From Deltaproteobacteria bacterium (GTDB taxonomy: Bacteria > Campylobacterota_A > Desulfurellia > JAGGSF01), in assembly GCA_021159235.1 (NCBI GenBank), contig JAGGSF010000026.1, positions 1-15,047 of the forward strand: 15,047 nt of DNA. The letters run 5' to 3'. The position numbers and the translations under genes were made by a program. The notes beneath the pieces were generated by a model, which made no database searches, was not told the origin of the DNA, and saw only the letters and a program-made list of their open reading frames with translations. Shown here in pieces: positions 7,850-14,956 of this stretch; position 1 is the first letter of the stretch; the number at the start of each line of letters is the position of its first letter.

Positions 7850-7878
7850 TTGACCGAGATTGCAATGTGATATATAAT
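7850..7878 (+). promoter_or_regulatory. Near-consensus sigma-70 promoter of the 6S RNA
   Basis: TTGACC (7850-7855, five of six) is followed after exactly 17 bp by a perfect TATAAT (7873-7878). Transcription should start near A7885, just before the 6S RNA closing stem at 7893. It is the best promoter in the window and is not followed by an open reading frame with a ribosome-binding site, as expected for a structural RNA gene. Its -35 is only 23 bp from the -35 of the opposing ilvD promoter. Confidence 0.8.
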
Positions 7879-7884
7879 AATAAC

Positions 7885-8050
7885 AGGTGTTTTGCCCTGG
7901 GATACATGTGGTCGGAATGTGTTTTCCCTTGAGCCAACACCTAACTATGGGATGTGGGCTCATCTTGCAAGCCTGTCCTGCAAGATCGAAACATCCACCT
8001 TGTTAGTTAGGTTCAGGGAAGCTATTCGCACGGTATCCCGGGGCATTTCA
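7885..8050 (+). ncRNA. ssrS: 6S RNA
   Basis: Regulatory RNA of about 165 nt that binds housekeeping RNA polymerase by mimicking an open promoter. A closing stem pairs TGCCCTGGGATAC (7893-7905) with GTATCCCGGGGCA (8033-8045), 13 bp with one G-U. Further in, GTG (7908-7910) can pair CAC (8029-8031), and TTCCC (7924-7928) can pair GGGAA (8016-8020). The apical arm has GGATGT (7950-7955) with ACATCC (7991-7996) and a perfect 8-bp hairpin, ATCTTGCA/TGCAAGAT (7962-7969, 7979-7986). The 5' bubble strand CCCTTGAGCC resembles E. coli 6S CCCCTGAGCC, the template for product RNA, and the 3' strand GGTTCAGGG also resembles it. The next gene is the 5-formyl-THF cyclo-ligase, the classic ssrS-ygfA neighbour. 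Ends are approximate; no intrinsic terminator is seen. Confidence 0.86.
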
Positions 8051-8060
8051 GATGCAAATG

Positions 8061-8256
8061 AAGATAATTAAAAATAAATATGGGAGGAAATAAACAAAGT
8101 TGCCAGGCAAGTGGAATTTAGAGGTAGGATTTTATTGGAATAATAATGGAAGAGATAGAAGGATGGGTACTGATGCAATAATCGGGTCAGGGAATGTAAT
8201 GGCCTTGATTTTTTTAACAAGGAAAATAAATATACTTATTTTTAAGAGATTGATTT
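8061..8256 (+). other. Intergenic stretch, no convincing gene
   Basis: About 200 AT-rich bases between the 6S RNA and the next promoter. The longest open frame with any start is TTG 8100 to the stop at 8268-8270 (56 codons), with a GGGAGG box at 8082-8087 that is rather far away (12 nt). Its product is not recognisable and ends in a Phe/Ile-rich tail typical of translated non-coding AT-rich DNA. An imperfect hairpin (CCTTG 8203-8207 / CAAGG 8218-8222) and an A/T-only inverted repeat (8223-8242) are present but do not form a convincing terminator. It may be a leader, decayed gene remnant or spacer. Confidence 0.4.
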
Positions 8257-8285
8257 TTGACAATTTTTGAAATGTATCTTTATAG
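8257..8285 (+). promoter_or_regulatory. Predicted promoter of the cyclo-ligase/rny/ymdB operon
   Basis: A perfect -35 hexamer TTGACA (8257-8262) is followed 17 bp later by TTATAG (8280-8285); TTTATA one base upstream would give a 16-bp spacer. This would start a transcript about 65 nt before the ATG at 8359. It means the cyclo-ligase operon need not depend on read-through from the 6S RNA promoter. Confidence 0.5.
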
Positions 8286-8358
8286 CCCATAGAGCCATTT
8301 TTTAAATAAATCCTACAGGTAAACTCAAAATTCCATTTGCTCTTTTGTTAGAGAGAGC

Positions 8359-8919
8359 ATGAAAAAAGATAAGCTGCGTGCATGGGCATTAAAGAAGCGG
8401 ATGGGAATGTCTGAGCAAGAAGTAAGGGCAAAAAGTGCGCTTATCTGTCAGAAGTTGCTCAATTTCCTGAAAGAAAAGCAAGAAAAAAGAGTAATGCTCT
8501 ATTATGCAATCAGGAACGAAGTTGATCTAAAACCACTTGCAATCCGTCTTTTAACATTAGGGTATAAGATAAGCCTGCCCGTGGTGAAGAATGAAGGAAT
8601 AATACCCGTTTCTATTGATCACTATGATCGCTGCTGCAAAAAGGGATATAAGGGAATTTATGAACCATGCTTATTGGAAGGACGAATAGTCCATAAAAAC
8701 GAAATTGATGCAGTAGTTGTGCCGGGCATCGCCTTTAACCAGCGAGGATACAGAGTTGGTTATGGGAAGGGATTTTACGATCACTTTCTTAAAAGTCTTA
8801 AAGCAATCAAATTGGGAGCAGCTTACAACTGGCAGATTATAAGCTTTAAAGAAGAAGAGTATGACGTGCCAGTAGACATTGTATTCACGGAAAATTCAGT
8901 TTTAAGGAGAGAAAAATGA
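8359..8919 (+). CDS. 5-formyltetrahydrofolate cyclo-ligase (methenyl-THF synthetase)
   Basis: Cytoplasmic ATP-dependent enzyme that converts 5-formyl-THF to 5,10-methenyl-THF, returning a storage/inhibitory folate to the one-carbon pool. 186 aa, typical length. Family marks are the basic N-terminus (MKKDKLRAWALKKR), YYAIRNEVDL (substrate region), and the strongly conserved VPGIAFNQRGYRVGYGKGFYD phosphate-binding segment (about residues 121-141), which in most members reads VPGLAFD..GyRLGYGgGyYD. The C-terminal DVPVDIVFTE matches the family end. An AGAGAG ribosome-binding site sits just upstream of the ATG. The stop overlaps the RNase Y start (ATGA). Its place about 300 nt after a 6S RNA reproduces the ygfA (fau) neighbourhood known from proteobacteria. 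Confidence 0.93.
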   Translation: MKKDKLRAWALKKRMGMSEQEVRAKSALICQKLLNFLKEKQEKRVMLYYAIRNEVDLKPLAIRLLTLGYKISLPVVKNEGIIPVSIDHYDRCCKKGYKGIYEPCLLEGRIVHKNEIDAVVVPGIAFNQRGYRVGYGKGFYDHFLKSLKAIKLGAAYNWQIISFKEEEYDVPVDIVFTENSVLRREK

Positions 8920-10463
8920 GTGAAACAGGAATTATTGTGTGTTTTTTATCTTTTCTTCTGGGTGTTGTTGTTACCTTCTTTTACCTGCTGCAGGTTTCTA
9001 AAAATAGGAAGGAATACGGCAAGAGGATAATTTCAGATGCAAAAAAAGAGGGAGAAAGAATACTGAAAACCGCACAATTAGAAGCAAAGGAATATCTTAT
9101 AAAAGCAAAATCAGATTTTGAACAAGAAGCGAAGGAAAAAAGAAGGGAAATGCAAAAATGGGAAGATAGACTGGAATTTAAGGAAAAAGGGTTAGACAAA
9201 AGACAGGCATTGATAGAAGAAAAACTCGAAAAGTTACAAAAAGAAGCTGCATCACTGGAGGAAAAAAAGAAAATTATAGAAAGAGAAAGTAAAAAAATAG
9301 GGCAGCTTTCCTTAGAATGGCGACAAAAACTGCAGGAAATAGCAGGGATGACTGAGAACGAAGCGAAAGAGATTATCATAAAGAATATGCAGGAAAAGGC
9401 AAAAAAAGAGGCATTAAACTACATAAAAAATATGGAGGAAAAGGCAAAAGAAGAGGCAAAGAGACGCAGCCAGAATATTATCTCCCTTGCTATAGAGAGA
9501 ATGAGTGGTAATTTTATTGCCGAAAGAACCATTTCTACTGTCAGCCTACCCTCAGATGAAATGAAAGGAAGAATTATTGGCAGAGAAGGGAGAAATGTCA
9601 GAACGTTTGAAAAGGCGGCAGGCGTTGATCTAATAATCGATGATACACCGGAGGTAGTAGTAATCTCCAGTTTCAATCCTCTACGCAGGGAAACAGCAAG
9701 AATTGCTTTAGAGAGACTCGTTGCCGATGGAAGAATACATCCTGCGAGAATTGAAGAAACGATAGAAAAAGTAAGGGAAGAACTAAGTCAAGAAGCGATA
9801 GATGAGGTAAAAAAGATTATATTTGATTTGGATATCCCTGATCTACATCCAGAAATAATAAAGCACCTCTCCATGCTCAAATTCCGCACCAGCTATACCC
9901 AAAATGTGCTCATCCATTCGCAGGAGGTGGCCTACCTGGCAGGCATAATGGCAGCGGAGTTAGGATTGGATGAAAAACTGGCCAGAAGAGCGGGACTTTT
10001 ACACGACATTGGAAAATCCGTAGATCAGGAAATAGGGGGAAGTCATACTAAGATCGGTGCAGAAATAGCCAAAAAATACGGGGAATCGGAAAAGGTAATC
10101 AATGCCATACTTTCTCACCACGGCGAGGTAGAATTTAGCTGTCCAGAATCTGTACTGGTAGCTGCTGCCGATGCTCTCTCTGCCGCCAGGCCAGGAGCGA
10201 GAAAGGAAATCTTAGAACATTACATCAAGAGATTGGAGGAATTAGAAAAGATCGCACTTTCTCATGAAGGCGTAAAAAATGCTTATGCTATGCAGGCAGG
10301 AAGAGAACTGAGGGTAATTGTAGAAGAGAAAAGTCTAAGTGATACAGATAGTGTAATGTTGGCAAGGGAAATTGCTCAGGAGATTGAAGAGAAAACAACC
10401 TATCCCGGTCAGGTAAAGGTTACAGTAATCAGAGAGACAAGGGCAATTGATTATGTCAGATGA
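8916..10463 (+). CDS. rny: Ribonuclease Y
   Basis: Membrane-anchored endoribonuclease that starts mRNA decay in bacteria lacking, or in addition to, RNase E. 515 aa, the standard size. Domains in order: N-terminal membrane helix (residues 5-27), a long charged coiled coil (about 30-190, Lys/Glu rich), a KH RNA-binding domain with the GRIIGREGRN loop (218-227), and an HD metal-dependent phosphohydrolase domain. The HD domain shows His334, the His363-Asp364 pair in LLHDIGKS, His377, the HHGE pair at 401-402 and Asp419. A strong AAGGAGA box at 8904-8910 precedes the ATG. It overlaps the cyclo-ligase stop by 4 nt and the next gene by 11 nt; rny-ymdB is also the order in Bacillus. Confidence 0.97.
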   Translation: MSETGIIVCFLSFLLGVVVTFFYLLQVSKNRKEYGKRIISDAKKEGERILKTAQLEAKEYLIKAKSDFEQEAKEKRREMQKWEDRLEFKEKGLDKRQALIEEKLEKLQKEAASLEEKKKIIERESKKIGQLSLEWRQKLQEIAGMTENEAKEIIIKNMQEKAKKEALNYIKNMEEKAKEEAKRRSQNIISLAIERMSGNFIAERTISTVSLPSDEMKGRIIGREGRNVRTFEKAAGVDLIIDDTPEVVVISSFNPLRRETARIALERLVADGRIHPARIEETIEKVREELSQEAIDEVKKIIFDLDIPDLHPEIIKHLSMLKFRTSYTQNVLIHSQEVAYLAGIMAAELGLDEKLARRAGLLHDIGKSVDQEIGGSHTKIGAEIAKKYGESEKVINAILSHHGEVEFSCPESVLVAAADALSAARPGARKEILEHYIKRLEELEKIALSHEGVKNAYAMQAGRELRVIVEEKSLSDTDSVMLAREIAQEIEEKTTYPGQVKVTVIRETRAIDYVR

Positions 10464-11235
10464 ATTAAAAATATTGTTCATAGGCGATATTGTGGGAAAA
10501 CCAGGGAGAAAGGTGCTTTCCTATCTTATGCCGGGTTTAACCGAGAAATACAAACCAGATCTGGTTATTGTAAATGTGGAGAATATAGCAGGTGGGTTTG
10601 GTATAACGGTGAAAACCTACAGGGAGTTAGAAGATTTAGCAGATGTATTTACCTCTGGCAACCATGTGTGGGATAAAAAAGAAACACTTGAAAATATAGA
10701 TGGGATGCAAAAACTCTTAAGGCCATCAAATATTCATCCTTCTTTACCTGGGAGGAGATATAAGATCTTAAAGGTTAAAGGGATTAGAGTTTTAGTAACA
10801 AATCTTCTGGGTCGTGTATTCATGGAACCTGTTGACGATCCATTTCGGACCATAGACAGTCTTCTCCAGGAAGTAGAAGCAGAAGTAAGGATTGTGGACT
10901 TTCATGCAGAAGCTACATCGGAAAAAGAGGCAATGGGATGGTATCTGAATGGGCGAGTGACAGCAGTGATAGGCACGCATACCCATGTACAAACTGCAGA
11001 TGAACGCATTTTAAGCAAAGGCACAGCTTATATTACAGATGTAGGTATGACAGGCAGCCTGGATGGCATAATCGGTTTTAAAAAGGAAGAGGTAATAGAA
11101 AAGATTGTCTACGGAATACCAAAGAAATTAGAACCATGCAAAGAAAATCTGCATCTGAACGGTGTCTTTATAAAATGTGACTTAGAAGGGAAAGCACACT
11201 CTATTAAAAGAATAGATGAGGTAATGAAAGATTAA
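10453..11235 (+). CDS. ymdB: YmdB-type metallophosphoesterase (2',3'-cyclic nucleotide phosphodiesterase family)
   Basis: Homologue of Bacillus YmdB (TIGR00282 family), a di-iron phosphodiesterase that acts on 2',3'-cyclic nucleotides and affects biofilm and motility decisions. About 260 aa, full length. Metal-binding motifs appear in family order: FIGDIVGKPGR (Asp near residue 10), VNVENIAGGFGI (Asn-Glu), TSGNHVWDKKE (Asn-His), DFHAEATSEK (His) and IGTHTHVQTAD (two His). I chose ATG 10453 (MSDELKILFIGD) rather than the TTG two codons earlier. It overlaps rny, and since RNase products can carry 2',3'-cyclic ends a shared role in RNA turnover is plausible but unproven. The operon ends right after it at a hairpin terminator. 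Confidence 0.93.
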   Translation: MSDELKILFIGDIVGKPGRKVLSYLMPGLTEKYKPDLVIVNVENIAGGFGITVKTYRELEDLADVFTSGNHVWDKKETLENIDGMQKLLRPSNIHPSLPGRRYKILKVKGIRVLVTNLLGRVFMEPVDDPFRTIDSLLQEVEAEVRIVDFHAEATSEKEAMGWYLNGRVTAVIGTHTHVQTADERILSKGTAYITDVGMTGSLDGIIGFKKEEVIEKIVYGIPKKLEPCKENLHLNGVFIKCDLEGKAHSIKRIDEVMKD

Positions 11236-11277: not shown

Positions 11278-11718
11278 TTATTTCTCTACTTTGTAACCTG
11301 CTTTTTTCCAGCCAAATATAAAACCTTTCTCCAGGTTCTTTACATTTCCATAGCCCATGGTCATAAGTCTCAAAGTAGCTAAAGAACCTCTTCCGCCCGA
11401 CCTACAATAGACAACAATAGGTGTAGATTTGTCTGGTACAAGCTTTGCAATCTTGAATTCCAGAAGTCCTCGGGGTAAATTCTTGGCATAAGGAATATGT
11501 CCTGCTTTATACTCCGATGGTTCTCTCACATCTAAAATCACAAGCTTTCCTGCTTTTGCCTCTGAGAGTTCTGCATTTAACTCCTTTGGTGTAATCTGCG
11601 CAATGTATTCCTGCGCTATTTTGACCAAATCTCCCTTAGTTGGCCAGGCATAACTCAAAGATGCAACAAATGCCACCGCCAACCAGACCAGCAGTACAGA
11701 TTTCAGATACCTACGCAT
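11278..11718 (-). CDS. Exported rhodanese-like sulfurtransferase
   Basis: Single-domain rhodanese with an N-terminal signal peptide (MRRYLK, hydrophobic core, cleavage near SYA-WP at residue 24), so it should act in the periplasm. The domain shows VILDVREPSEYKAGHIP (about 59-75) and the active-site loop YCRSGGRG with the persulfide-forming cysteine at 105. Length is 146 aa from ATG 11718, chosen over the GTG at 11724 because the GGGGG run at 11725-11729 is then well spaced. It is last in the molybdopterin oxidoreductase operon. By analogy with the polysulfide-sulfur transferase Sud of Wolinella, it may bind and hand over polysulfide sulfur to the reductase; that role is inferred from context. 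Other rhodaneses serve thiosulfate or cyanide detoxification. Confidence 0.88.
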   Translation of the reverse strand: MRRYLKSVLLVWLAVAFVASLSYAWPTKGDLVKIAQEYIAQITPKELNAELSEAKAGKLVILDVREPSEYKAGHIPYAKNLPRGLLEFKIAKLVPDKSTPIVVYCRSGGRGSLATLRLMTMGYGNVKNLEKGFIFGWKKAGYKVEK

Positions 11719-11746
11719 AAACACCCCCTATGAAAATAATTTTTGT

Positions 11747-12085
11747 TTAACATCCCTCAAATTCTACCTCTTCCGTTTCTTTTGGTGCAATCTCCGGTCT
11801 GGCTTTCTTCTTAGGTTTTACTGTTATTTTTCCACCCGAGATTATCTTATCGTAGTTTTCCCAGGCTTCATCATTCCAGGGATTTTCCTGAATAGCCTTT
11901 TTGAAGTAAGTTCTTGCCATCTCCATGTCTCCTTCAGACACAGCCTTTTTCCCCTTTGTAATGTATTCAGCGCATGCTGCATTACTAAAAGCATAGGGCT
12001 GAACAGCAAGAGCCCCGTTTAAAGAAATTATAAACATGAAGAGAAAAATTGCAACAGCGACAATAATCAACGGTTTTTTCATCAT
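11747..12085 (-). CDS. Small exported or membrane-anchored TPR-like protein ending in cysteine
   Basis: 112 aa, not a named family. It starts MMKKPLIIVAVAIFLFMFII, a signal peptide or anchor with possible cleavage after ALA (residue 27). Residues about 41-82 form one TPR-like helix pair (ITKGKKAVSEGDMEMARTYFKKAI, then NPWNDEAWENYDKII). A Lys/Pro-rich then Glu-rich tail (85-110) leads to a final Gly-Cys; the only other cysteine is Cys38. A GAGGAGG box precedes the double ATG. It sits between the ferredoxin subunit and the rhodanese of the respiratory operon, so it probably helps assemble or tether the complex, or takes part in sulfur transfer through its cysteines. Both roles are inference. 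Confidence 0.7.
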   Translation of the reverse strand: MMKKPLIIVAVAIFLFMFIISLNGALAVQPYAFSNAACAEYITKGKKAVSEGDMEMARTYFKKAIQENPWNDEAWENYDKIISGGKITVKPKKKARPEIAPKETEEVEFEGC

Positions 12086-12094
12086 CTGTCCTCC

Positions 12095-12661
12095 TCATAC
12101 TTCCACATAATATACCAGTGGTTTTACACCTAACATATTTGCCTTTGGCTGCCATACCTTTTTTGCCTTCTGATGTAAGAGTTTATACACCTCACTGTTC
12201 TTATCGTTTAAATCACCAAATACCCTGGCTTCTGTTGGACAGGTAGATACGCAAGCCGGTTTCATGCCTGCCTTCAAACGCTCCACACAAAATGTGCACT
12301 TATCTACTATACCTTCATGCTCATTGTAGTATCTTGCGTTGTAAGGACAGGCAAGCACACACATCCTACAACCAATACACCTCTCCTTATCAATAAGAAC
12401 CATACCATCTTCATTATGATAACTTGCCGATGTAGGACAAACACTAATGCAGGGCGCATTTTCACAGTGGAAACACAAAAGCGGCATGAAATCTATGGCT
12501 GTAACCTGTCCATTCTCTATCTTCTCTCCTTCCAAAATCTGTGTTCTGAAATATTCTTTTCCCAATGGCACCTTATTTTGAGCCTTACAGGCAACAGTGC
12601 ATCCCTTACAATCTATACACCTGCCCGGGACAAGAACCATTGCGTAATCTTTTTCTTTCAT
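12095..12661 (-). CDS. Four-cluster [4Fe-4S] electron-transfer subunit (PsrB/PhsB/NrfC type)
   Basis: Electron-transfer partner of the molybdopterin subunit, 188 aa. Sixteen cysteines fall into four sets as in the DmsB/PsrB/PhsB family: 15, 18, 21, 25 (CIDCKGCTVAC); 63, 66, 71, 75 (CFHCENAPCISVC); 95, 98, 101, 105 (CIGCRMCVLAC); and 122, 125, 137, 141 (CTFC then CVSTC). All four [4Fe-4S] clusters should therefore form, with none replaced. There is no signal peptide, so it is likely carried across the membrane with the Tat signal of its partner, as is usual for this family. It follows the catalytic subunit by 9 nt and precedes the TPR-like gene by 9 nt. Confidence 0.93.
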   Translation of the reverse strand: MKEKDYAMVLVPGRCIDCKGCTVACKAQNKVPLGKEYFRTQILEGEKIENGQVTAIDFMPLLCFHCENAPCISVCPTSASYHNEDGMVLIDKERCIGCRMCVLACPYNARYYNEHEGIVDKCTFCVERLKAGMKPACVSTCPTEARVFGDLNDKNSEVYKLLHQKAKKVWQPKANMLGVKPLVYYVEV

Positions 12662-12670
12662 TTGCCCTCC

Positions 12671-14902
12671 TTATGCCCTCTCTATTTTCACAAAGCTGTC
12701 TTTATGATAAGCATAAGCACCACTTATGGGATCAACCGCTTCAGAGGCAAAATCCCCATCCGATGCACCCTTCTCATAGCAGAGGGTCAAAAATGGTGAA
12801 AATCTACCAAATCCATGAGCAATAAATATACAATCCTTTCTTATACGAGAAGTAACATAAGCCTCTACAGGTGGAGATTTTTTGTTTCCCTGCACAAGCA
12901 CTACTTTATCTCCATTTTTAATGCCCAGCATAGCTGCTTCATCTTTATTTATCCATAGCTTATTTACAGAATAAGCTTCATGTAACCAGGGATTGTTTTG
13001 AGTGCGGGCATGAGTATGCGCTGATACCCGTCCAAACAAAAGCCTGTATGAACCCTTGGGCGGGAATGAGGGCCTCTTATATACAGGTAAAGGATCATAA
13101 CCATATTTTTTAAACAATGTAGAATACAATTCAACCTTTCCTGTTGGCGTAGAAAATCGTATCTTCTCTCCCCGTGCCCTTCTGTAGGGATTACCCTCTT
13201 TTACGATTACCCCATTTTCTTTCAACTCTTTCTGCTCCTCTGAAGAAAGCTGAGATATCCTGTATTCCACAATCTCCTTCATACTCATAGGGAAATATTT
13301 CCCTAAACCCATCTTTTCAGCAATCATCCTACAGATCTCCCATTCATCTCTGGTATCGTATAGAGGTTTTACCGCCGGTTCTCTACAGGCAATGAACGGC
13401 TGAATAGCACCCCCTGCCTTTAAATCATATTTTTCCAGATATGTAGATGCAGGGAGTATAATGTCAGAATAAAGGCACATCTCCGTAGGATATACATCAA
13501 CAGTTACAATAAAGTCTAAATTTTCAATAGCTCTTTTCAGCGTTTCCCCTGGTTTTGCCACATTTGTGACAGGATTTGTACCACAAACAAACAAACCTTT
13601 AATAGGATAGGGTTTTTGTTCTACTATCGCTTTAATTAAACCATTCGTTCTTCCAAATGAGGAAGGAGCAAGAGGAAAATCCGAACCCTTACCACAACCA
13701 TCGGCTCGCTCAAAATTCTTTATCCTGGGCAATTTCGGCAACGGTGCTTTGGGGGCTTTAATTTTCGTGGGATGATAATATCCCCCCGGCATCTCCCAGT
13801 TTCCTAAAAGTGCATTCAATATTGCAATGGCTCTGGCATTCTGTGTATCATCACCATATCGGGATGTTCTCCTTGGAGGGATAACAACGGAAGATGGAGC
13901 ATATCGAGCCAATTCCCAGGCAATTCTCTTAATTGTTGCTGCAGGTATATCCGTTTCTTTTTCTGCCCATTCAGGAGTATATTTCTCTACATGCTCTCTT
14001 AATTCGTAAAAACCATAACAGTAATTCTCTACGAAATCTGCATTATACAAACCATCCCTGATAATAACATTGATCAGAGCCAGAACAAAAGCCATGTCTG
14101 TACCTGGTTTTATAGGCAGCCACTCATCTGCCTTTGCCGCTGTCTTTGTAAATCTTGGATCCACACAAACAATCTTTGCATGTCTGGATAAGGCAACACC
14201 CAGGTTCTTAGCATCACCCATCATTACCGCTTCAGCTATGTTTCTTCCCATAAGAAGAATATACCTGCTATTTGCTATATCATAGTACTCATGAGAAGAA
14301 AGGTCTCTACCATATGTACCAAACCAACCCATAAGGCGAGAGGCCCTACAGGAAGAATAAGAAGGCTCCGCAATGTTCTTTGCTCCCATCGCATCAAACA
14401 ATCTTTTAGCAGCATGCCCGGCAGTGCCATGGGGAATCAAAGCCAAAGCCTTTGCACCATGTTTTTCTTTAATTTCTGTCATTTCTTTAGCAACGGTGCT
14501 TATCGCTTCATCCCATGAAATCTTCTGCCACTTACCTTCACCCCTTTTACCTACCCTTTTTAATGGAGTCTTTAGCCTGTCTGGATCGTACAGAAGCATA
14601 ACACCAGCATTACCACGAGCACACACCTTTCCGTAGTTGTATGGATGATAAGGATTGCCCTCTATCTTTCTCACCCTTCCATTTTCCGTAAACACATCTA
14701 TACCACAGCCCCAGAAGCACATCTCACACCAGTTGTGAGTAACTTTTGGCTTAAATGGTTTTATCTCTGGATATTTACCCGGTTCCGGAAGACCAAAACT
14801 GCTGAGTATGCCTGCATGTGCCTTCTGCTTGAAGAACAACGGGTAGGACGCGGCAACGCCTATCGCTGCTCCTTTTAAAAAACCTCTTCGTGATATTCCC
14901 AT
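12671..14902 (-). CDS. Tat-exported molybdopterin oxidoreductase, polysulfide/thiosulfate reductase (PsrA/PhsA) type catalytic subunit
   Basis: Catalytic subunit of the DMSO-reductase superfamily, 743 aa. It begins MGISRRGFLKG, a twin-arginine signal with probable cleavage after KAHA (residue 30). The N-terminal [4Fe-4S] motif is C-X2-C-X3-C-X27-C (Cys59, 62, 66, 94). YSSCRASR places Cys185 where PsrA/PhsA-like enzymes have a cysteine Mo/W ligand. Also seen are FVCGTNPVTNVA, SDIILPASTYLEKYD and, near the C-terminus, THARTQNNPWLHE, the PsrA/PhsA-type cofactor loop. I chose ATG 14902 because a GAGGAGG box lies 5 nt upstream and the Tat motif follows at once; the frame also runs back to an ATG at 14929. 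The substrate is probably polysulfide, thiosulfate or tetrathionate; arsenate or other oxyanions are not excluded. It is first in a four-gene operon ending with a rhodanese. Confidence 0.9.
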   Translation of the reverse strand: MGISRRGFLKGAAIGVAASYPLFFKQKAHAGILSSFGLPEPGKYPEIKPFKPKVTHNWCEMCFWGCGIDVFTENGRVRKIEGNPYHPYNYGKVCARGNAGVMLLYDPDRLKTPLKRVGKRGEGKWQKISWDEAISTVAKEMTEIKEKHGAKALALIPHGTAGHAAKRLFDAMGAKNIAEPSYSSCRASRLMGWFGTYGRDLSSHEYYDIANSRYILLMGRNIAEAVMMGDAKNLGVALSRHAKIVCVDPRFTKTAAKADEWLPIKPGTDMAFVLALINVIIRDGLYNADFVENYCYGFYELREHVEKYTPEWAEKETDIPAATIKRIAWELARYAPSSVVIPPRRTSRYGDDTQNARAIAILNALLGNWEMPGGYYHPTKIKAPKAPLPKLPRIKNFERADGCGKGSDFPLAPSSFGRTNGLIKAIVEQKPYPIKGLFVCGTNPVTNVAKPGETLKRAIENLDFIVTVDVYPTEMCLYSDIILPASTYLEKYDLKAGGAIQPFIACREPAVKPLYDTRDEWEICRMIAEKMGLGKYFPMSMKEIVEYRISQLSSEEQKELKENGVIVKEGNPYRRARGEKIRFSTPTGKVELYSTLFKKYGYDPLPVYKRPSFPPKGSYRLLFGRVSAHTHARTQNNPWLHEAYSVNKLWINKDEAAMLGIKNGDKVVLVQGNKKSPPVEAYVTSRIRKDCIFIAHGFGRFSPFLTLCYEKGASDGDFASEAVDPISGAYAYHKDSFVKIERA

Positions 14903-14907
14903 ACACG

Positions 14908-14914
14908 CCTCCTC
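14908..14914 (-). promoter_or_regulatory. Ribosome-binding site deciding the oxidoreductase start
   Basis: GAGGAGG on the minus strand, 5 nt before ATG 14902. It favours the start that gives MGISRRGFLKG, with the Tat motif at the very N-terminus, over the upstream in-frame ATG at 14929. Confidence 0.8.
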
Positions 14915-14956
14915 TACCAAAAACCACAAATCTACAAAAAGACAAGCCTTGTTGCA

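Follow-up and report, generated by a model that had tools for sequence, protein, structure and literature searches.

Does the intergenic region between ilvD and the gene of 5-formyltetrahydrofolate cyclo-ligase (fau, also called ygfA) encode a 6S RNA and, if so, how would such an RNA be released from RNA polymerase? The region lies in a stretch of 15,047 nt (contig JAGGSF010000026.1 of assembly GCA_021159235.1, hereafter the window) from a genome of the class Desulfurellia. A sequence-only reading of the window had placed a 6S RNA in this region and named a covariance search with the Rfam 6S models as one check.

Identity of the RNA and its promoter

Rfam release 15 was scanned over the whole window, and RF00013 (6S RNA) is the sole family above its cut-off. 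The match lies at 7891-8048 (+) and covers the model in full (positions 1-187) with 60 bits against a curated cut-off of 46.4 (E 5.2e-10), i.e., far beyond chance, and the 6S RNA of the sequence-only reading is thereby borne out. The same reading had held that protein-only annotation would miss the gene; this is true, but a standard Rfam scan suffices to detect it. We are nearly certain that the RNA is a genuine 6S RNA, and its function as a polymerase regulator would follow from its family. The RNA is an ordinary new representative of a known family, and its identification is routine; with it, the small genome of a sulfur-respiring organism from a poorly studied class gains a well-supported global transcription regulator. 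Searches of the literature for 6S RNA together with Hippea or Desulfurella returned no report on the subject. The features are collected in Table 1.

Table 1. Features of the 6S RNA locus in the window
Feature	Position	Strand	Basis and remarks
Sigma-70-type promoter of the 6S gene, TTGACC-17-TATAAT	7850..7878	+	11 of 12 consensus positions matched; predicted start
6S RNA gene	7885..8053	+	RF00013 whole model (7891-8048), fold z -5.2, class alignment A3; 5' end placed from the promoter, 3' end provisional
Closing stem, 5' strand	7893..7905	+	13 bp with 8033-8045 in the predicted fold, one U.G
Helix P2, 5' strand, putative pRNA template	7926..7935	+	Pairs with 8010-8019 in the fold
Central bubble, 5' strand	7936..7949	+	7940-7947 CCUAACUA, half of the possible collapse helix
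Apical arm	7950..7996	+	GGAUGU/ACAUCC (7950-7955/7991-7996) and 8-bp terminal hairpin (7962-7969/7979-7986); fold
Central bubble, 3' strand	7997..8009	+	8004-8011 UAGUUAGG, including the GG of P2, other half of the possible collapse helix
Helix P2, 3' strand	8010..8019	+	Fold and class pairing
Closing stem, 3' strand	8033..8045	+	Partner of 7893-7905; same fold and covariation basis
fau (ygfA), 5-formyltetrahydrofolate cyclo-ligase, syntenic partner	8359..8919	+	PF01812, E 1.3e-34
rny (RNase Y)	8916..10463	+	PF12072; after fau at every inspected class locus
ymdB, phosphoesterase	10447..11235	+	PF13277, E 3.7e-101; after rny in most class members

With RF00013, a single 6S copy is found in the whole genome (1.13 Mb, estimated to be 100% complete), and a search for a second copy with a model of the class (see below) gave just a chance match of 10.5 bits at 13714. 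Two further candidates were rejected: a mir-81 match (17.8 bits, cut-off 54.5) is due to chance, and the minus-strand matches of the class model (23-28 bits), which might have been taken for antisense genes, are explained by the near-palindromic rod of the RNA itself.

The near-perfect promoter read earlier from the letters is indeed in place, with TTGACC at 7850-7855, a spacer of 17 nt and TATAAT at 7873-7878. It is kept in both congeners, though the DNA upstream of it is otherwise not alignable; in the other families of the class, a consensus promoter at the right distance was not consistently found.

Fold and covariation in Desulfurellia

The minimum-energy fold of the 6S strand has -68.4 kcal/mol, compared with -48.9 kcal/mol (sd 3.7) in shuffles (z -5.2), and none of 200 shuffles is as stable. 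A rod-like architecture, i.e., closing arm, large central bubble and apical arm, appears both in the single-sequence fold and in the class consensus; the former places five weak pairs inside the bubble, and the latter keeps the bubble open. The 13-bp closing stem and the perfect 8-bp apical hairpin (AUCUUGCA/UGCAAGAU, 7962-7969/7979-7986) that had been proposed for this RNA are both part of the minimum-energy fold, at the positions where they had been drawn. Its bubble strands, however, had been misassigned: CCCTTGAGCC and GGTTCAGGG are both present, but they pair together as helix P2, which carries the GAGCC/GGUUC motif typical of 6S architecture, and the true central bubble is the next stretch inwards, before the apical arm.

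For the comparison within Desulfurellia we used 25 genomes, our own included. Please note that the order Desulfurellales belongs to this class, which NCBI places in the phylum Campylobacterota; the neighbouring RNase Y has its nearest named relatives in Desulfurellaceae (87% identity) and Hippea MAGs (63-64%). RF00013 detects a 6S RNA in 23 of the 25 genomes, and a class model was built from these 23 sequences. It revealed a 24th carrier, G003, missed by the Rfam genome search (L120:1942-2099, 58.5 bits with the class model, upstream of fau), so that 24 of the 25 genomes carry the RNA, one copy each and in the same place. In G007, which is 88% complete, neither the 6S RNA (RF00013, class model) nor fau was found.

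In the alignment of the 23 sequences (A3), 97.0% of the cells are standard pairs (98.8% within P2), and compensatory changes occur in 18 of the 38 consensus pairs; no shuffle equals the observed values. Covariation scores 0.404 in this alignment; shuffles give 0.203, and slid structures do not exceed 0.139. Both arms contribute: 8 of 10 consensus pairs in the apical arm have changed on both sides, and 7 of 15 in the closing arm show compensatory changes, so the closing-stem covariation among relatives, whose absence the sequence-only reading had set as grounds for rejection, is there.

The score of 60 bits is modest, several relatives of family f3 reach 72-98 bits, and the apical arm, which is shorter than that of the RF00013 model, has lost some 25-30 nt. 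This could be taken as the mark of a relic, i.e., a 6S RNA by descent that no longer binds the polymerase. We consider a relic highly improbable, since decay would break pairs, whereas the promoter, P2, the bubble motifs and both arms are kept in three congeners with pair-preserving changes.

The fau-rny-ymdB neighbourhood

The Pfam matches agree with the earlier assignment of the downstream genes as 5-formyl-THF cyclo-ligase, RNase Y and YmdB. In all 24 class genomes with a 6S RNA, fau is directly downstream and shares its strand; the distance is about 30-120 nt in most of the class and 310-410 nt in the genus of the window. Because the RNA is found just upstream of fau in all 24 carriers, and no fau was found in the sole genome without it, the link of 6S RNA to folate metabolism does extend to this lineage, as had been suggested. 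The order 6S-fau-rny is fixed across the whole class, and ymdB comes next after rny, save in family f2 or where the locus ends early. On the upstream side, ilvD was not found beside the 6S RNA in the congeners.

The position of the RNA raises the question of whether it might be no free-standing 6S RNA at all but a structured 5' leader of the fau-rny-ymdB operon, i.e., a riboswitch-like cis-regulatory element. The RNA and fau share a strand, with the RNA upstream, a search for an intrinsic terminator between the two found none, and the RNA is followed in the genus by a conserved spacer of 310 nt. Nevertheless, RF00013 is matched over its entire length, and all other Rfam families stay below their cut-offs; the rod, the central bubble and the P2 motif are those of a 6S RNA; and a leader switch would poorly tolerate a distance to fau that varies in the class between about 30 and 410 nt. 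In E. coli, ssrS and ygfA are likewise co-transcribed, and fau may be co-transcribed with the RNA here. A leader element is thus very improbable, and we keep to the 6S RNA.

Outside the class, 6S-fau adjacency is a minority trait among the genomes sampled (G029, G038, G044 and G052), and it is also seen in two Deltaproteobacteria MAGs (L056 and L110). The gene ygfA has been described next to 6S RNA in alpha- and gamma-proteobacteria and in some beta- and delta-proteobacteria or Firmicutes (PMC9130861), and that paper cites Barrick 2005 and Wehner 2014 for the linkage outside alpha- and gamma-proteobacteria. As this linkage is already published, the Desulfurellia case extends a known pattern and is no discovery.

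Some further observations were made around the locus. Both congeners conserve the spacer between the 6S RNA and fau (8049-8358, 310 nt), in which a small ORF may lie at 8163-8270 (+). It reads MGTDAIIGSGNVMALIF... in the window and MDTNAIIESGNVTALALLAKEIN... in genome G001, with indels in multiples of three; Pfam searches with this ORF gave nothing usable, and it may be a small protein or a gene relic. A 6S-like RNA (60 bits with the Desulfurellia model) is seen directly upstream of rny-ymdB in a Candidatus Goldbacteria MAG (L042:7599-7791), and no fau was detected there between the RNA and rny. At the far end of the window, 11278-14929 (-) encodes a molybdopterin oxidoreductase (with a weak, sub-cutoff Tat-signal match, E 0.017), a 4Fe-4S ferredoxin-type subunit, a short protein of unknown kind and a rhodanese; this cluster looks like an operon of sulfur or polysulfide respiration.

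Proposed release from the polymerase and comparison with known systems

A 6S RNA mimics an open promoter and blocks the primary-sigma polymerase, until copying of a short product RNA (pRNA) unwinds P2 and the RNA is ejected (PMC8876501). Two rearrangements have been described for this step: in E. coli-type 6S RNA, a hairpin forms in the 3' bubble strand after pRNA synthesis, and in B. subtilis 6S-1 and in Aquifex, a central bubble collapse helix arises when the distal 5' bubble strand pairs with the P2 3' strand (PMC8876501). For the RNA of the window we propose the following. Its own housekeeping promoter would give a rod-shaped transcript of about 160-165 nt, whose central bubble would occupy the primary-sigma holoenzyme once growth stops. 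When nutrients return, the 5' bubble strand and P2 would serve the polymerase as template for a short pRNA, whose synthesis would open P2. The predicted pRNA, 5'-GUUGGCUCAAGGGA, would begin with G opposite C7938, a start that we take from its position relative to U44 of E. coli; every class member has C as the template base at this position. Once P2 is open, its GG and the 3' bubble strand would become the partner of the distal 5' bubble strand; the bubble would thereby collapse and the RNA be ejected, in the manner of B. subtilis 6S-1 and Aquifex.

This last step would draw on the complementarity of the two bubble strands. In the window, CCUAACUA (7940-7947) can pair with UAGUUAGG (8004-8011) along its full length of 8 bp, and the duplex has -9.9 kcal/mol, which only 3 of 500 shuffles equal. 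Most class members likewise have a duplex stronger than nearly all of their shuffles, and 96% of the cells are paired across the class, against 7-52% when the helix is slid. With 14 template nucleotides blocked in constrained folding, as they would be by the pRNA, the C-C/G-G pairs form with a probability of at least 0.96 in 22 of 24 sequences. In the free RNA, P2 is predicted to be the dominant helix in about half of the sequences, and the collapse helix competes with it in the rest; the collapse helix may therefore not be strictly pRNA-induced.

The same complementarity could be a mere by-product of sequence conserved for sigma or start-site contacts in a working 6S RNA that is released by some other rearrangement. 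The helix itself shows weak covariation. Its variation is mostly one-sided (A-U to G-U and the like), and just two changes affect both strands, each of them in G005, a genome that otherwise makes no use of the collapse helix; moreover, G003 and G005 have a 3'-bubble hairpin in its place. Against this, pairing has been maintained through one-sided changes at five positions and, in the window, through an inserted A opposite U7946. In other lineages, whose bubbles make the same polymerase contacts, the complementarity is mostly absent (the duplex occurs in just 3 of 13 scorable sequences, L011, L021 and L056). We therefore give the by-product explanation a real but minor chance, and consider a collapse helix acting in release to be the somewhat better bet.

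Neither constrained folding nor duplex scoring gave a usable collapse helix in G003 and G005, both of family f2. In these two, the 3' bubble strand contains a hairpin of 5 bp (-7.2 and -6.1 kcal/mol), compared with at most -2.6 kcal/mol in the other class members; in the window, the extended E. coli-type hairpin is absent, with 3 pairs and -1.3 kcal/mol. It is tempting, though doubtful, to suppose that the mode of release has switched within the class, i.e., that most Desulfurellia use the collapse helix and family f2 an E. coli-like 3'-bubble hairpin. This predicted switch is the sole mildly new point of our analysis and a modest lead. If true, the class would be a natural test bed for the evolution of the 6S release mechanism, and the choice between collapse helix and 3' hairpin is a sequence-level prediction open to in vitro release assays.

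In comparison with known systems, the RNA of the window shares with E. coli ssrS (RF00013) the closing arm, P2 with its GAGCC/GGUUC motif, the central bubble, the apical arm, the single copy and the position upstream of fau/ygfA on the same strand. It differs from the 187-position model in its length of about 158 nt with the shorter apical arm, and from ssrS in that the 9-bp 3'-bubble hairpin is missing, the pRNA would start on a C template, i.e., with G, and not at U44, and the locus continues with rny and ymdB. A pRNA starting with G has also been proposed for Aquificaceae (PMC8876501, PMC4227106). The possible pairing of the distal 5' bubble strand with the P2 3' strand, after the pRNA opens P2, is shared with 6S-1 of B. 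subtilis and the 6S RNA of Aquifex aeolicus (PMC8876501, PMC4227106). What differs is the predicted helix, which numbers 8-10 pairs in most class members and would reach into the 3' bubble strand. The gene order agrees with the 6S-ygfA neighbourhood of proteobacteria and some Firmicutes (Barrick 2005 and Wehner 2014, cited in PMC9130861), with fau directly downstream on the same strand, whereas Desulfurellia add rny and usually ymdB in a fixed order.
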